A stretch of DNA of 64,000 nt from Stentor roeselii (taxonomy: Eukaryota > Ciliophora > Heterotrichea > Heterotrichida > Stentoridae): assembly GCA_006503475.1 (NCBI GenBank), contig RSEH01000022.1, positions 124,001 through 188,000 of the forward strand, in the 5' to 3' direction. The notes beneath the pieces were generated by a model. It was not told the DNA's origin. It saw nothing but the letters and a program-made list of their open reading frames with translations, and ran no database searches. Made by a program: the position numbers and the translations under genes. Below are positions 32,650 to 50,143 of this stretch, piece after piece. Numbering within the stretch: position 1 is the stretch's first letter; every line of letters begins with the position of its first letter.

Positions 32650-35600
32650 ATGTTCTTTGTCTTTATATTTTCTTTTGCTTTCAGCAGAGAAATAAAGGAC
32701 GGTGAAACTCGATCTGGGACTTTATCTTATATGGAAAGTAATAAAGAGGTATTTTCTTATAGTTCTAAGTCAACATCTGACCTCCTGATAATGGTCTCGA
32801 TGTTTTCAGACAATAGTGACCCATTTCTGTACATCCACTCAGTTCCAGAAGTATCAGAAAACAATTTCCTATACTCAAGCACCTCAAGAAATGAAGCTTT
32901 AATGCGAATTCCATCCTCATTGTTAAGTATATCAAATTCATCCAATTACTACATTCTACTAAAATGTCAGAACTTCTGCAACTATCGTCTTTCAATCTTT
33001 CAAGACAACGCAATCCTCCTTCAAGATGGAATTCCAATTTCAAATACTTTGTCACCAGGAGACTCTCTTCTATTTAAATATGAGTTCACTAAAGATTCGA
33101 AAGAAACACTTGCATCTTTGCAGTACTCAGGAGAAGTTTCGATGTTTGTATCTCAAGAATCATCTGATCCTTCACCAGAGAACTCGTTGGAAGTAAAAAC
33201 GAATTGGCTAGATGACTATGAGTTTTTTTCTAATAGTTTCAAGAAAAATGATGAGGTTTATATCAAAGTAGTAGCTTCGAAACCTTCACATTTTTTACTT
33301 GTTCTTACTGACTCACCCGATTCTCCAGTAAAAGTTCAAGAAAGCAAAGTGATAAAAGGTACCATAAATCATTCTCAAACAAAAAACTACTTCATCGAAC
33401 TAACCGAAAACGCAAGCGGTCTTGAAATATCCTTAACAGTCTTCCGAGGAGACGCCGATATTTACATCTCAATCATGCGACAGCCAGGTCCAAATTTCCA
33501 CGATTTCAGTTCTGAGTCAATAGGAAACGATTTCATAAGACTCACTAAAAAAGACTTCGAAAAATTAAACTTTTTATCAGGAAGAGTATTTTTATCAGTC
33601 TACGGCGCCGAAGACTCAAGTTTCAGCTTTGTCGTGCGATTAAGCCAGATCTCATCAGTAGGTCTATCTGAAGGAGTACCTTTAGAATCAAACATCTTAG
33701 ACTCCGAGATTCAGAACTACTTCTTCCCTCTCGCGATGTACTCTCAAAACATCAGCATTTACCTGACAACATACGACGGCGATGCTGACCTTTACGTGCA
33801 GTTCTGTGCACATCGATGCATTATCACATCTGAAATAAAAAACTCTGAACAAATCTTTATTAATGAAGGCTCTCAAGCTCTTCAGTCTATTGACCTTGTT
33901 TATCAACCTGAAACCTTCTGCGTTTTTTCAAGTTGTAACTTTGCAGTCGCTGTTAAAGGCAAGTCTCAGTCTTACTACTCGTTAGTTGTCACTACGGAAA
34001 ATAGTAAAATTGTTCTACAACAGGGAAGGTCTTTTATCATGAGTTTCCCTGCAACAGGGGAAAAAGGTTATGAATATAGTGTCACTGACTTGACTGTCAC
34101 TCAGGTTGACTTTGTTTTAACACCGGTCTTTGGAAATCCTGACATTTGTGTTAGTTTTAATACTGGTGATCAGAAAATTTGTGAAAAAAAATCTAGTAAA
34201 AATGGATTTGAAGTTGATGTGGCTAGCTTTGTTAGAGGGGATGATCGGGAAAGTCTTGCTGGAGTTTTTGATGTTCGTGTTAGTTGTGTTGGTGGGTGTT
34301 ATTATTCTATTGTTGTTAGGGAAACGGCTCCTGAAAAAAACTCGTCGGTTCATTTGATACCGGGGCATCCTCAGAAAGATGTCTTGGTGAATTCAACAGA
34401 CCAAGACTACCGAATCTACTACTTCGACGTCGGTGAAAGTAAAAATGACATCAAGATAGTTTTAACATCACACATAGGCAAATTCGATGTCTTTGTTGCA
34501 AATAACGATAAAAATCTTGACTGGAAACATGAAAAGTTTTACTATAACTGGAAAGCAAGTGAATCAGGTAACAACGATCACCTCACAATAAGCCACTCAG
34601 ACAAGCACTACAAAGAAAACTCAAAATACCTGATATTGGTTCAAGCAGTTCGTTTTTCAGGTGATAACTCAGCGAGTTACACAATTCAATTTACTCAAGG
34701 TGATGATATTTTCATGCTACTCTCAGACATGAGTATGTCTGGACACATTGAATCACAAGAATACGCTTTTTACTCTTTTCCATTGCACTACTCAAGGCTG
34801 GACATCAAGATTTCATTGACAGTCTCATCAGGAGATCCAGACCTTTATATTTCATTAGACTACCAAAACACCCGTCCAAGCAAATCTTCCTATTCGATCC
34901 GTTCAACAACCTTCGGAAGTGAGACCCTAACCTTATTATGGGACGATGAGATTTCAACCTACTGTCCAGAACTTGCTCAAGAGTACAAACACGGCATGAG
35001 TCACGGTTGTTTTTTATACATTTCAGTCTATTCAGAATACGCAAGTTCTTACACATTAAGAGTCTCTCCTCAAAGCAACCTTCCAAAGTACTTATCTCGT
35101 GGAGGTATAACTTACGGAAACCTCAACCGAGGCGAATACGAATTTTTCTACGGCTTTGTCGAAGTGAATGAAAAGTTAATCGTCAGTCTTCAGAACATTG
35201 TCGGTGACAGCGAGTTGCTAGTAAGTGTAAACGACAAAGACCTAGTTTCCAGTGACTTGAAGGACTGGGTGCGACCTTCAGAAGACAACTCGATGATAAA
35301 AGTAAAAAATCTGTTAACTGAAGAGGTAAAAATGACTCCAGCAGAACTAGCATCTCACTGTGAAAGTACTTGTTTGGTACTAGCAAGTGTCAAGTGTATC
35401 AGTGACACTTGTTCATTCGTGATTGAAATTCCTGAAGAGGAAATCGTTAAGTTAACTGAAGGACAAGCGAAATTTGGTTATGTCGGTCGAGACTTTCAGT
35501 ACTACAGCTATTTTTGTGATAAGGCTGAAGCTGACTTGGTATTCATCGTGACTCCTCTGGAAGGATGTGATCCAAGTCTTTATATATCAAAAGGTAAAGA

Positions 35601-37641
35601 CTCTCGTCCTTCATTACTTGAATTCGACTGGTTTTCAGTGAGTTCTTCTGGAGAATCAGTGAAAATCACAGCGAAAGACAAGTACTTTCAAGGAAAGTCA
35701 ATGCAAGGGACTTACATAATCGGTGTGACGAGTGAGCACGATACATGTTCCTATACAATAACAGTGACGAATCATGAAATCCCTGTCGTGGTCCTATCAG
35801 CAGGTCTTCCTCAACAGGGTTCTTTGCTGGCAAATGAATATAAATACTACGCCTTGTACAATAGTTTAAGCGAGCAGGTCTCAATCGCGTTGACCCCGTC
35901 ACTAGGCAGTCCTTACCTCCTGGTATCTGTTCACAGTCAATCAGAAAATGAGTTCCTGGCAGACCTGCCTTCACAATTCTCATATCAATGGAACACCAAT
36001 CATGGTAAAGACAAGTACTCTTTAACTATCACCAGTGAAGATCCTCTCTTCTGCAGAGATTGTTATTATCTCATCGCTGTGACCTCTGAAGAAATCGCAA
36101 CTTTCACAATCACAGCTTCCACTGAAACCAGCTGGAAAGTACTTCAAAACGGTTTTCCTTATAAACGAGAAATAAAACAAGCTAATTTTCATTACTTTTC
36201 ATTCACCAGCAATGGAAATCGACCACTTCACATTTCAGTCTCTGAATACAGTGGACAGGTTGACTTTGGAGTAAGTTCTTCCAAAGGCTCAGCGGATTTC
36301 ACTTGGAAGGCTTCGAGCGGGTTCAAAACGAAGTCCTTGTTGATTCCTCGAGAAGACCCTAACTTCAGTGCAGGTACCTACTTCATCACAGTATCTACAA
36401 CTGACCCGATAGCAGTGTATTCAATTGTCTGTTACCACGAAGAGACTTACATCTCGCTCGTTGACGGCTGGCCTTTAGTCTATCGAATGGCAGGAAGTTC
36501 TGAAAGTTCAGTCAAGTTTAAATTCGACCAGTCCGGGTCGATTTTTTGCATGTTGGAGTCTTTGAAGCCAGGGTTTTTACCTTCAGTAGTCTCCTCGAAA
36601 CGGTCAAAAGTAACGAAAGAAGTCACTGTGATTTCAACTTTTTCTCCTGATAACTACCAAGACCGGCATATTTTGATGGACTTTCAGCTGGACTTAAGTG
36701 AAACTTTGATGCTTAATATGAAAAACCTGGTAAATCAAAGTGATCTTTGGAATGAATTCAGTCTTTACTGCACAAAATCATTTCATCCTGCAATGCTCGC
36801 TGTTGGACTCATGTCAATCGGACACCTTAACAAGGGTCGACCTGCTCTAAGATACGAGGTGTCTTCAGTGAAAAAGCAAACTTTCAGTATTTACGTAGTT
36901 CCTTGTATGGGAAACGTCCAACTTCAAGTCTCTACCAACTGGACAATGATCACTGGAGAACCGACTCTGCTCACTTTAATTAAATTAACAGACGGAGTTA
37001 TTTTTGGAAAAGTGAAGGACTTTGAAGGGCAGCTTTACTTGACTGTTTCTAATAAAGATGAAGAAGAACCTGCAAGTTTTAAGGTGTTAGTTGATAACTT
37101 ACAACTTCCAAGACTTTTTCCAGGAAATGAAGGATTTCTTAGCTGGGACTTCGAAAAAGATAAAGTGAAAGTTGAGTGGAATGGACTGGAGTACTCGGAT
37201 GGGAAGCCTTATGAGGGAAAAGTGACTTATCACTTGTTTTTTACCAGGTCTCAAAGTGTCCCTTTGCTTACTACTTGTCAAGTCCAGTACGCTGCTAGTC
37301 GCAAAGAAGGCAAATGGCTCGGGTCAACTGAAAAAACATCAATTTTAGTAGATTTGAAAAAAGACGGGTATTTAACCATTGTCGCTCAAGTTGAAGCTTT
37401 AGGAGTTGTTGCTTTAAATGAAGTCATTTATGATAAGACTAAAATTGAAGGATCTGGTCTTCTGAGTTCTTCATTGAGACTTATTTTTATACTTTCTATC
37501 ACTGCCATTGTTTTGGGAATCATGGTCTGGGTCTTTTACTGCAGGTATCGCAAGGTCAAGACTGAAGTCAAGGTCATGAAGGACTACGGAAAACAACTGG
37601 AAATTGTAGATGATACTATTATGCATGAAAATCCTAAATAG
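32650..37641 (+). CDS. Giant type I surface protein with ~10-11 PPC-like repeats
   Basis: 1663 residues. A short signal peptide (MFFVFIFSFAFS) is followed by about eleven ~110-120-residue beta-rich repeats. Each has a G-[D/N/S]-x-[D/P]-x-x-[V/I]-S type turn. Examples: RGDADIYISIM (~residue 263), DGDADLYVQF (~375), FGNPDICVSF (~490), SGDPDLYISLDY (~725), EGCDPSLYISK (~973), GSPYLLVSV (~1083). This resembles the bacterial-type pre-peptidase C-terminal (PPC) domain. One transmembrane segment near residues 1607-1632 (LIFILSITAIVLGIMVWVFY) precedes a short basic cytoplasmic tail. Paired Cys in several repeats suggest disulfides. Likely a cell-surface or contractile-vacuole/alveolar membrane protein; location is inference. 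Confidence 0.75.
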   Translation: MFFVFIFSFAFSREIKDGETRSGTLSYMESNKEVFSYSSKSTSDLLIMVSMFSDNSDPFLYIHSVPEVSENNFLYSSTSRNEALMRIPSSLLSISNSSNYYILLKCQNFCNYRLSIFQDNAILLQDGIPISNTLSPGDSLLFKYEFTKDSKETLASLQYSGEVSMFVSQESSDPSPENSLEVKTNWLDDYEFFSNSFKKNDEVYIKVVASKPSHFLLVLTDSPDSPVKVQESKVIKGTINHSQTKNYFIELTENASGLEISLTVFRGDADIYISIMRQPGPNFHDFSSESIGNDFIRLTKKDFEKLNFLSGRVFLSVYGAEDSSFSFVVRLSQISSVGLSEGVPLESNILDSEIQNYFFPLAMYSQNISIYLTTYDGDADLYVQFCAHRCIITSEIKNSEQIFINEGSQALQSIDLVYQPETFCVFSSCNFAVAVKGKSQSYYSLVVTTENSKIVLQQGRSFIMSFPATGEKGYEYSVTDLTVTQVDFVLTPVFGNPDICVSFNTGDQKICEKKSSKNGFEVDVASFVRGDDRESLAGVFDVRVSCVGGCYYSIVVRETAPEKNSSVHLIPGHPQKDVLVNSTDQDYRIYYFDVGESKNDIKIVLTSHIGKFDVFVANNDKNLDWKHEKFYYNWKASESGNNDHLTISHSDKHYKENSKYLILVQAVRFSGDNSASYTIQFTQGDDIFMLLSDMSMSGHIESQEYAFYSFPLHYSRLDIKISLTVSSGDPDLYISLDYQNTRPSKSSYSIRSTTFGSETLTLLWDDEISTYCPELAQEYKHGMSHGCFLYISVYSEYASSYTLRVSPQSNLPKYLSRGGITYGNLNRGEYEFFYGFVEVNEKLIVSLQNIVGDSELLVSVNDKDLVSSDLKDWVRPSEDNSMIKVKNLLTEEVKMTPAELASHCESTCLVLASVKCISDTCSFVIEIPEEEIVKLTEGQAKFGYVGRDFQYYSYFCDKAEADLVFIVTPLEGCDPSLYISKGKDSRPSLLEFDWFSVSSSGESVKITAKDKYFQGKSMQGTYIIGVTSEHDTCSYTITVTNHEIPVVVLSAGLPQQGSLLANEYKYYALYNSLSEQVSIALTPSLGSPYLLVSVHSQSENEFLADLPSQFSYQWNTNHGKDKYSLTITSEDPLFCRDCYYLIAVTSEEIATFTITASTETSWKVLQNGFPYKREIKQANFHYFSFTSNGNRPLHISVSEYSGQVDFGVSSSKGSADFTWKASSGFKTKSLLIPREDPNFSAGTYFITVSTTDPIAVYSIVCYHEETYISLVDGWPLVYRMAGSSESSVKFKFDQSGSIFCMLESLKPGFLPSVVSSKRSKVTKEVTVISTFSPDNYQDRHILMDFQLDLSETLMLNMKNLVNQSDLWNEFSLYCTKSFHPAMLAVGLMSIGHLNKGRPALRYEVSSVKKQTFSIYVVPCMGNVQLQVSTNWTMITGEPTLLTLIKLTDGVIFGKVKDFEGQLYLTVSNKDEEEPASFKVLVDNLQLPRLFPGNEGFLSWDFEKDKVKVEWNGLEYSDGKPYEGKVTYHLFFTRSQSVPLLTTCQVQYAASRKEGKWLGSTEKTSILVDLKKDGYLTIVAQVEALGVVALNEVIYDKTKIEGSGLLSSSLRLIFILSITAIVLGIMVWVFYCRYRKVKTEVKVMKDYGKQLEIVDDTIMHENPK

Positions 37642-49219: not shown

Positions 49220-50143
49220 TTAAGAATAGAAACATCTCTGGAGCCAATGCTTTGCTTCTTCTTCGTCGATGTATCCGCCGTATTCTTTCTTTCTTGAGTT
49301 CACATCGTAGATTCGGACTGCCTGTCAAATACTAACTATTTTTCAACTACTTCTTCCTTTCTTTCAAATACTTGCTGCATATGCGATACCCACTGAATAA
49401 ACCTAACAATCTTCATAAGTATCACAATCTTAATGCCAGATACAATCTACCTAAATCCAACAATCTGCATAATCCCTACAAACAACAACAAACTGTCTAT
49501 CATTCGAAACCCTGACATCATAAGTATCAACCTGGACATCATGTATTCTAATTCCAACCCTATTCAAAAATTCTATCTTTTCCTTCAATTCTAAAGAAGA
49601 AAACATTCTCTGCACATCTGAATGACTGCCAAATTTCACTTTTTACTCAATACAAATTATCTCATCTTGAAAAGTCGCTTGTCGAAACCTTTGTTCTTCT
49701 CCCGGATCATTAGAAAAATGTTGATTTAGCAACTGGACTGTTAAATCTGCGAAGCCTTTCAGTTCTTTTCCTTTGAAGCTCGAGTATCTGAACTGCCCGA
49801 GGATTTCGTCTACGTTTCCTGCTTGGCCTTTTGATATGAAACTTTTTAGAATTCTTTGTTTTGTCTTGATCAGGTCGAGGAATTGCTTCGCCATTCTGCT
49901 TAAGTCGTCTGTCATTTTGTTTACTATGAAGATTGCCTCGTTTTTTGCTTCTTGCAGTTGAGAATATGCCTGGTTCATAACAAATAAATGAAAAGAAACT
50001 TCATGAGTCTTCGAATTTCCATAGCATCCAGACATCTCTCCATGCATCCTAAAATGAAACTCGCAAAGCCTTAACTTCCGAGGACACGAACATTCATATT
50101 CAACCCATCGAGAGCAGTCAAGGCTTTGACAGCGAAGAGACAT
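49220..50143 (-). CDS. B-box-like zinc protein encoded across an array of tiny introns
   Basis: Starts at ATG 50143 (in TATAAATG), ends at TAA 49220-49222. The first ~50 residues have a Cys/His cluster (C5, C10, C18, C20, C27, H30, H34, C40, H47, H52), zinc-binding in B-box-like fashion; then a coiled coil. A 15-nt intron at 49639-49653 joins to VQRMFSSLELKEKIEFLNRV and continues to QFVVV. From 49479 to 49318 come nine 15-nt GT...AG units with A at position 10, separated by 3- or 6-nt segments. Removing the six that contain in-frame stops gives 272 residues with a junction leading to RRIIRIYDV, KKEYGGYIDEEEAKHWLQRC. Removing all nine gives 257. Either way the frame is kept to the final stop. 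Family not recognised. Confidence 0.75.
49318..49479 (-). other. Array of nine 15-nt intron-like units with 3/6-nt exons
   Basis: Units at 49465-49479, 49447-49461, 49429-49443, 49411-49425, 49393-49407, 49375-49389, 49357-49371, 49336-49350 and 49318-49332 (minus strand, listed 5' to 3'). Each is GT(N7)A(N3)AG: 9 of 9 have A at position 10. Spacers: ATT, ATT, ATT, ATT, TGG, CAA, GAAGAA, TTA. All lie in phase 1. Units 2, 3, 5, 7, 8 and 9 contain in-frame stops; 1, 4 and 6 do not. Confidence 0.7.
49639..49653 (-). other. 15-nt intron
   Basis: GTATTGAGTAAAAAG on the minus strand, A at position 10. It removes an in-frame TAA and joins the two halves of the B-box-like gene. Confidence 0.75.

Follow-up and report, generated by a model that had tools for sequence, protein, structure and literature searches.

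An array of nine candidate 15-nt introns separated by one or two codons in Stentor roeselii, and its counterparts in a family of paralogous genes

Tiny spliceosomal introns have been described in heterotrich ciliates. In Stentor coeruleus, 92.8% of introns are 15 nt long, 90.9% of all introns carry A at position 10, and their A+T content of 75.6% lies above the 62% of the nine introns described below (PMC9505925). Intron-bearing genes of that species mostly contain one intron, and the authors were unsure whether every intron is spliced in genes with more than eight (PMC9505925). Blepharisma stoltei likewise has introns of 15 or 16 nt, and in Blepharisma UGA encodes tryptophan (PMC9942806). Here, we describe a locus of Stentor roeselii in which such introns appear to follow one another with almost no exon between them.

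The window, that is, the whole stretch of 64,000 nt analyzed, belongs to a contig of 217,912 bases, and the genome measures 44.4 Mb. On its minus strand, from 49479 to 49318, nine units of the form GT-N7-A-N3-AG, each 15 nt long, are separated from their neighbors by one or two codons. A preliminary description of this DNA had reported nine such units with GT, A at position 10 (A10), and AG, and the pattern is borne out in 9/9. Its spacers of 3 or 6 nt are found at all eight places and read, in order, ATT, ATT, ATT, ATT, TGG, CAA, GAAGAA, and TTA. It had also stated that splicing keeps the frame; with the nine units and a single upstream intron removed, 49978-49220 indeed becomes a single 202-aa open frame, whose predicted protein ends ...SNDRQFVVV-YYYYLARRII-RIYDVNSRKKEYGGYIDEEEAKHWLQRCFYS. 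Among the 512 combinations of keeping or removing the nine units, only eight stay open, and units 2, 3, 5, 7, 8, and 9 are removed in all eight, which agrees with the earlier claim that at least six units have to be removed. The parts of the gene are listed below; array introns were assigned from the unit signature and the frame, and the 3- and 6-nt exons are the spacers between them.

49654-49978, minus strand: exon 1 of the host gene, from the ATG at 49978 (open frame; the 111-aa ORF P0001)
49639-49653, minus strand: single 15-nt intron upstream of the array, with an in-frame TAA inside (unit signature, frame)
49480-49638, minus strand: exon 2, ending ...VSNDRQFVVV and one further nt (phase 1); this end can be aligned with the family's upstream flank
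49465-49479, minus strand: array intron 1, GTAGGGATTATGCAG, without an in-frame stop, retention possible
49462-49464, minus strand: 3-nt exon ATT
49447-49461, minus strand: array intron 2, removal obligatory for an open frame
49444-49446, minus strand: 3-nt exon ATT
49429-49443, minus strand: array intron 3, removal obligatory for an open frame
49426-49428, minus strand: 3-nt exon ATT
49411-49425, minus strand: array intron 4, retention possible
49408-49410, minus strand: 3-nt exon ATT
49393-49407, minus strand: array intron 5, removal obligatory for an open frame
49390-49392, minus strand: 3-nt exon TGG
49375-49389, minus strand: array intron 6, retention possible
49372-49374, minus strand: 3-nt exon CAA
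49357-49371, minus strand: array intron 7, removal obligatory for an open frame
49351-49356, minus strand: 6-nt exon GAAGAA
49336-49350, minus strand: array intron 8, removal obligatory for an open frame
49333-49335, minus strand: 3-nt exon TTA
49318-49332, minus strand: array intron 9, removal obligatory for an open frame
49220-49317, minus strand: last exon, ...RIYDVNSRKKEYGGYIDEEEAKHWLQRCFYS, with TAA at 49222-49220 (open frame; alignable with the family's downstream exon)

A further unit of the same form, without a stop, lies inside the last exon at 49303-49289 and is read as coding. On the coding strand, C makes up 7-8% of exon 2 and the array (49318-49638) vs 18-19% of exon 1 and the last exon. 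The exon 1 ORF, P0001 (49654-49978), is present on three contigs in the protein database, the longest of 8,501 bases, so further assemblies of this stretch may exist. Elsewhere in the window, 32650-37641 is occupied by an intronless ORF of 1,663 aa with a match to a PPC domain only.

The signature of the array units is also that of ordinary introns in this genome. A strict test for single introns, in which 70 open codons were required on each side and both unspliced frames had to be blocked, returned 13 GT-AG gaps of 15 nt in 342 kb vs two for each of four control letter pairs. A10 was present in 12 of the 13 although it had not been selected for, so 15 nt with A10 is the rule in this genome, as in S. 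coeruleus. No 16-nt single intron passed the test in the 342 kb, and six other single introns were identified by it in the window. Chains of units were sought on both strands of 342,001 bases in 29 stretches, comprising the window, its neighbors, and arbitrarily chosen ones, with units of 15 or 16 nt and spacers of 0, 3, 6, or 9 nt. Three chains of at least four units (nine in the window, ten in stretch L025, and six in L031) and one chain of three were obtained, vs none of at least four and one of three in dinucleotide shuffles (30 times all 29 stretches). A looser scan (15-nt units, spacers of 0-12 nt) yielded a chain of four in L014 with spacers of 12, 9, and 12 nt, which was taken as repetitive coding sequence and is excluded from the count. 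Nineteen frames of at least 300 codons were found with all three stops read as stops (TAA ends 9, TAG 6, and TGA 4), and tryptophan is encoded by TGG in 109 of their 9,911 codons; together with the 15-nt introns, this suits a Stentor-like heterotrich that uses the standard genetic code, the test of the code being a weak one, with ORFs cut at all three stops by construction.

The arrays in L025 and L031, found by a blind scan of arbitrarily chosen stretches, interrupt related proteins at a corresponding site: the flanks are ...GKYLFHC and LHIWNLE... in L025, and ...GKYLFYC and LAVWNLE... in L031. The L025 protein has at least 157 matches in the genome (140 of 281 candidates scored), and the family is large, with a Cys-rich N-terminus, a coiled coil, and a WD-like C-terminus where the arrays sit at equivalent positions. 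Matches to array-bearing members break off after GKYLF and restart ~80-260 nt further on at the WNLE exon. The L031 flanks have 75 matches, 65 of them to the downstream exon. Twelve further gaps, picked from a larger match list for known exon ends on both sides, were fetched, and arrays are present in 12/12; a later addition, C261, is array-like only in part. Seen as a single curiosity in the preliminary description, the array is an instance of a pattern that recurs in this genome, and other members have zero-length exons as well. The ten next-best matches to the member C400 have 42-49% protein identity. The frame of C50a is broken upstream of its array, that of C50b is interrupted there by a TGA for which no 15/16-nt intron accounts, and the copy C473 (in L047) looks degraded; together with the partial array of C261, these defects suggest that pseudogenes may be among the copies. 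Positions ~2600-4930 of L031 (C50) hold a tandem pair of array-bearing family genes, the second with two 14-nt units. Family copies with many in-frame stops, at C386:4443-5091 (G000) and in L047 (C473), are probably decaying.

The window protein was aligned to the family profile with hhalign across the array, with a score of 32.2, a probability of 34%, and an E-value of 4.2e-4, vs a best score of 19.4 in 200 shuffles. Judged by this one profile comparison, the window protein is a diverged relative of the family.

The anatomy of the arrays was obtained from a frame-aware parse of the 12 arrays with both flanks (the window, C400, C50a, C50b, and eight of those fetched), in which GT and AG were imposed, lengths of 14-17 nt were allowed, and 15 nt, 16 nt, and A10 were favored. 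Outside this set were C349, C124, C70, and C513 (one flank), C473 (degraded), and C261 (a later addition). The 124 introns comprise 62 of 15 nt, 60 of 16 nt, and two of 14 nt; the 112 internal exons comprise 83 of 3 nt, 19 of zero length, six of 6 nt, three of 9 nt, and one of 18 nt. One open frame results in 12/12 arrays, and A10 is present in 60 of the 62 15-nt introns; because this parse seeks the frame and favors A10, its 12/12 is not independent evidence. A frame-blind parse, applied to 12 arrays without C349, C124, C70, and C513, restores the frame in nine and fails for C50a, C50b, and C481. Over 17 loci (without C473), it gives 138 internal exons, of which 129 have a length divisible by three, where one third would be expected. 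In the window, this parse also removes a unit from the last exon. Units of ambiguous assignment that lack A10 occur in C254 and C6. Since 16-nt units are frequent in the paralogues, read-through loses the frame there, and the flanks join only after removal.

Introns that abut directly (AG followed by GT) occur at the array start in 11/11 and near the end in 8/11 of the non-window arrays of the frame-aware set, whereas the window array has 15-nt units only and no zero-length exon. One such pair of 31 nt has 21 matches in the genome (13 + 8) with at most three mismatches, 11 of them exact and 20 starting with GT, vs none for the reversed control; a second pair has nine matches, and its control none. 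Each half of such a pair looks like a complete intron, and a single 31-nt intron is a possible reading.

Predicted splicing of the array yields GKYCFFYFGAKHLIVWSL in C481 and DKYIFYYLSYDDYMYVWNLE in C6. Both products are spaced like a WD40 repeat. A profile of 12 spliced hairpins, the window included, was compared with solved structures; the best match is RACK1 with an E-value of 0.0047, nearly all others have E-values of at least 0.01, and, going by their names, most of the best 60 of 68 matches are WD proteins (RACK1, WDR5, and others), the single stretches being weak and taken alone not significant. Neither the spliced proteins tried nor ten single hairpins match the Pfam WD40 family, no Pfam family reaches the cut-off in the window protein or C400, and a profile of three whole family proteins found no WD40 chain. 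The predicted hairpin is thus weakly WD-like, with WD40 membership not proven. A first idea, a Tim44/NTF2-like fold, was abandoned once the paralogues revealed the WD-like hairpin. At the other end of the protein, Pfam B-box profiles stay below the cut-off in the family N-terminus: C140 matches only ANCHR-like_BBOX (E 0.12), and C400 none. The C140 gene (L017:2339-3169) has a similar Cys-rich N-terminus and coiled coil, followed by a CBM_20 starch-binding domain (E 2.5e-17) and no WD-like hairpin, so the N-terminal module seems common to different C-termini. A search for homologues outside this genome returned only its own 111-aa ORF for the window protein and none at E 0.01 for C400, and P0001 has no match among viral contigs.

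The alternative that survives best is that only the six stop-bearing units are introns, the other three (1, 4, and 6) being either coding sequence or subject to alternative retention. The eight open combinations, with the same six units out, accord with it, and the frame survives retention of a 15-nt unit. All nine units nevertheless carry the full signature, the paralogues also need their 16-nt units out, and full removal gives the hairpin closest to the usual WD40 spacing; we regard this alternative as unlikely.

The array introns of the paralogues resemble one another. The 16-nt array intron GTAACCTACATCGAAG has 78 + 80 genome matches with at most two mismatches vs 13 + 10 for the reversed pattern. 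Among 100 matches listed, 54 neighbor distances are below 400 nt, and 33 of these equal 19 nt, the length of the intron plus a codon; at C469, 12 units extend over ~260 nt among the matches listed. Introns and codons were compared in eight arrays; the opening ATT exon was omitted from every array, as was the 18-nt exon from C400, and 6-nt exons were taken as two triplets. At eight free sites, 56 16-nt introns have an identity of 0.55 within and 0.56 between arrays, with position 14 nearly fixed; for single introns elsewhere, the identity at comparable sites is 0.34. The 57 codon triplets have an identity of 0.31 within and 0.29 between arrays, and 0.28-0.33 per position is predicted from composition alone. 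The paralogous arrays thus display an inverted conservation, the introns being alike and the codon exons alike at the level of composition only. The window introns lack this mutual likeness, with an identity of 0.30 at their free positions; hence they are no fresh 18-nt repeat and have little in common beyond the splice letters.

This last result weighs against a second alternative, an unspliced tandem minisatellite of 18/19-nt units within or after the gene, with GT and AG by accident and the downstream frame a chance ORF. The regular 18-nt spacing and the four successive ATT spacers in the window would suit a minisatellite, as would the 19-nt spacing and similar units of the paralogues. In the paralogues, however, unit length varies between 15 and 16 nt while nearly all spacers are multiples of three, and the downstream exon recurs and aligns to the last exon of the window, which leaves this alternative very improbable. 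Slightly less credible still is elimination at the DNA level, by which the units would be internal eliminated sequences in a germline or mixed assembly: ciliates do excise intragenic DNA (PMC9942806, in the part available), but the units share GT, A10, and AG with the ordinary single introns of this genome. Reassigned stops, with the array as a coding repeat (ADCWI*VDCIWH*DCDTYEDC* in the unspliced frame), can be practically discounted, as the long ORFs and TGG codons described above speak against it, weak as that test is, and the 16-nt units of the paralogues break any frame.

The preferred reading starts from what is directly observed, namely the letters, the frame, the recurrence at a corresponding place in the paralogues, and the weakly WD40-like predicted product. 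The intron reading of the preliminary description gains support from the mixed 15/16-nt units of the paralogous arrays in the same genome and from that product. On these sequence data, all nine units are very probably true spliceosomal introns, of the kind usual in Stentor, and together they form a diverged local version of the recurring array. The sequence that encodes the C-terminal WD-like hairpin would, at one site, be divided mostly into single codons, each shared by neighboring exons (phase 1), with a complete 15/16-nt intron between one codon and the next, and the hairpin so encoded would be hypervariable. Recognition may follow intron definition with a strict length ruler, under which each GT would pair only with an AG 15-16 nt away. 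As the end of the next unit lies ~33 nt from a GT, 3-nt exons would not be skipped under such a ruler, which would also permit two introns to abut with a zero-length exon. The introns are probably taken out singly and in order while transcription proceeds, so that the upstream exon would grow by about one codon per step.

The arrays probably grew via tandem duplication of a unit of intron plus 3 nt. Each duplication would add one residue to the loop, for which reason the arrays may be tolerated, and they may be used to diversify the loop. A stronger version, in which the arrays serve as a codon-cassette system that diversifies one surface hairpin of a large recognition-type family, is speculative and, in our judgment, rather doubtful; similar introns around single codons could allow unequal exchange or conversion between paralogues to add, drop, or swap codons in frame. 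If that version were true, splicing would be a frame-safe source of hypervariability. The inverted conservation suggests a role of the introns as frame-safe spacers for the evolution of a protein loop.

If transcripts agree, the spliceosome joins 3-nt and even zero-length exons in roughly ten consecutive steps, each across a 15/16-nt intron, a rigid intron-definition ruler is indicated, and the minimal exon and intron sizes for splicing become directly testable. Splicing would then assemble a segment of the protein in steps of little more than a single amino acid. Gene finders unprepared for such arrays would misread these genes. A literature search of titles and abstract openings returned no account of 3-nt exons in runs or of intron arrays like these, and the available parts of PMC10946202 and PMC12862383 contain nothing further on such arrays. 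Within that scope no earlier description was found of the feature that appears novel, the runs of single-codon and zero-length exons among otherwise known tiny introns.

Several known systems share some features of the arrays, and the comparison with each draws on the parts of the cited papers available to us. The tiny introns of S. coeruleus and B. stoltei are alike in length (15 or 16 nt for 9/9 window units, all of 15 nt, and for 122 of the 124 introns in the 12 arrays), in GT-AG, and in A10 (PMC9505925, PMC9942806), but runs of 3-nt or zero-length exons, a feature of the arrays, are absent from the descriptions there. Micro-exons of 1-6 nt, such as the 1-nt exons of Arabidopsis APC11 and Fusarium CYP621A, are likewise too short for exon definition (PMC12940212); they are single, whereas in the arrays several stand in a run between 15/16-nt introns. 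In recursive splicing, AG and GT abut directly at ratchet points and a 5' splice site is regenerated (PMC8605326), as at the 19 zero-length junctions of the paralogous arrays; the introns there are long, however, while the halves in the arrays look like complete introns of 14-16 nt. Fungal stwintrons resemble the arrays as two introns removed in consecutive reactions (PMC9024468 and others), but they are nested, one splitting a splice element of the other, whereas the parsed array units are each complete and lie side by side, either abutting or 3-9 nt apart, with one separated by 18 nt. Intron gain via tandem duplication also carries the splice signals along (PMC4974935); in the arrays, the duplication would have recurred many times, and about one codon would be gained per round.
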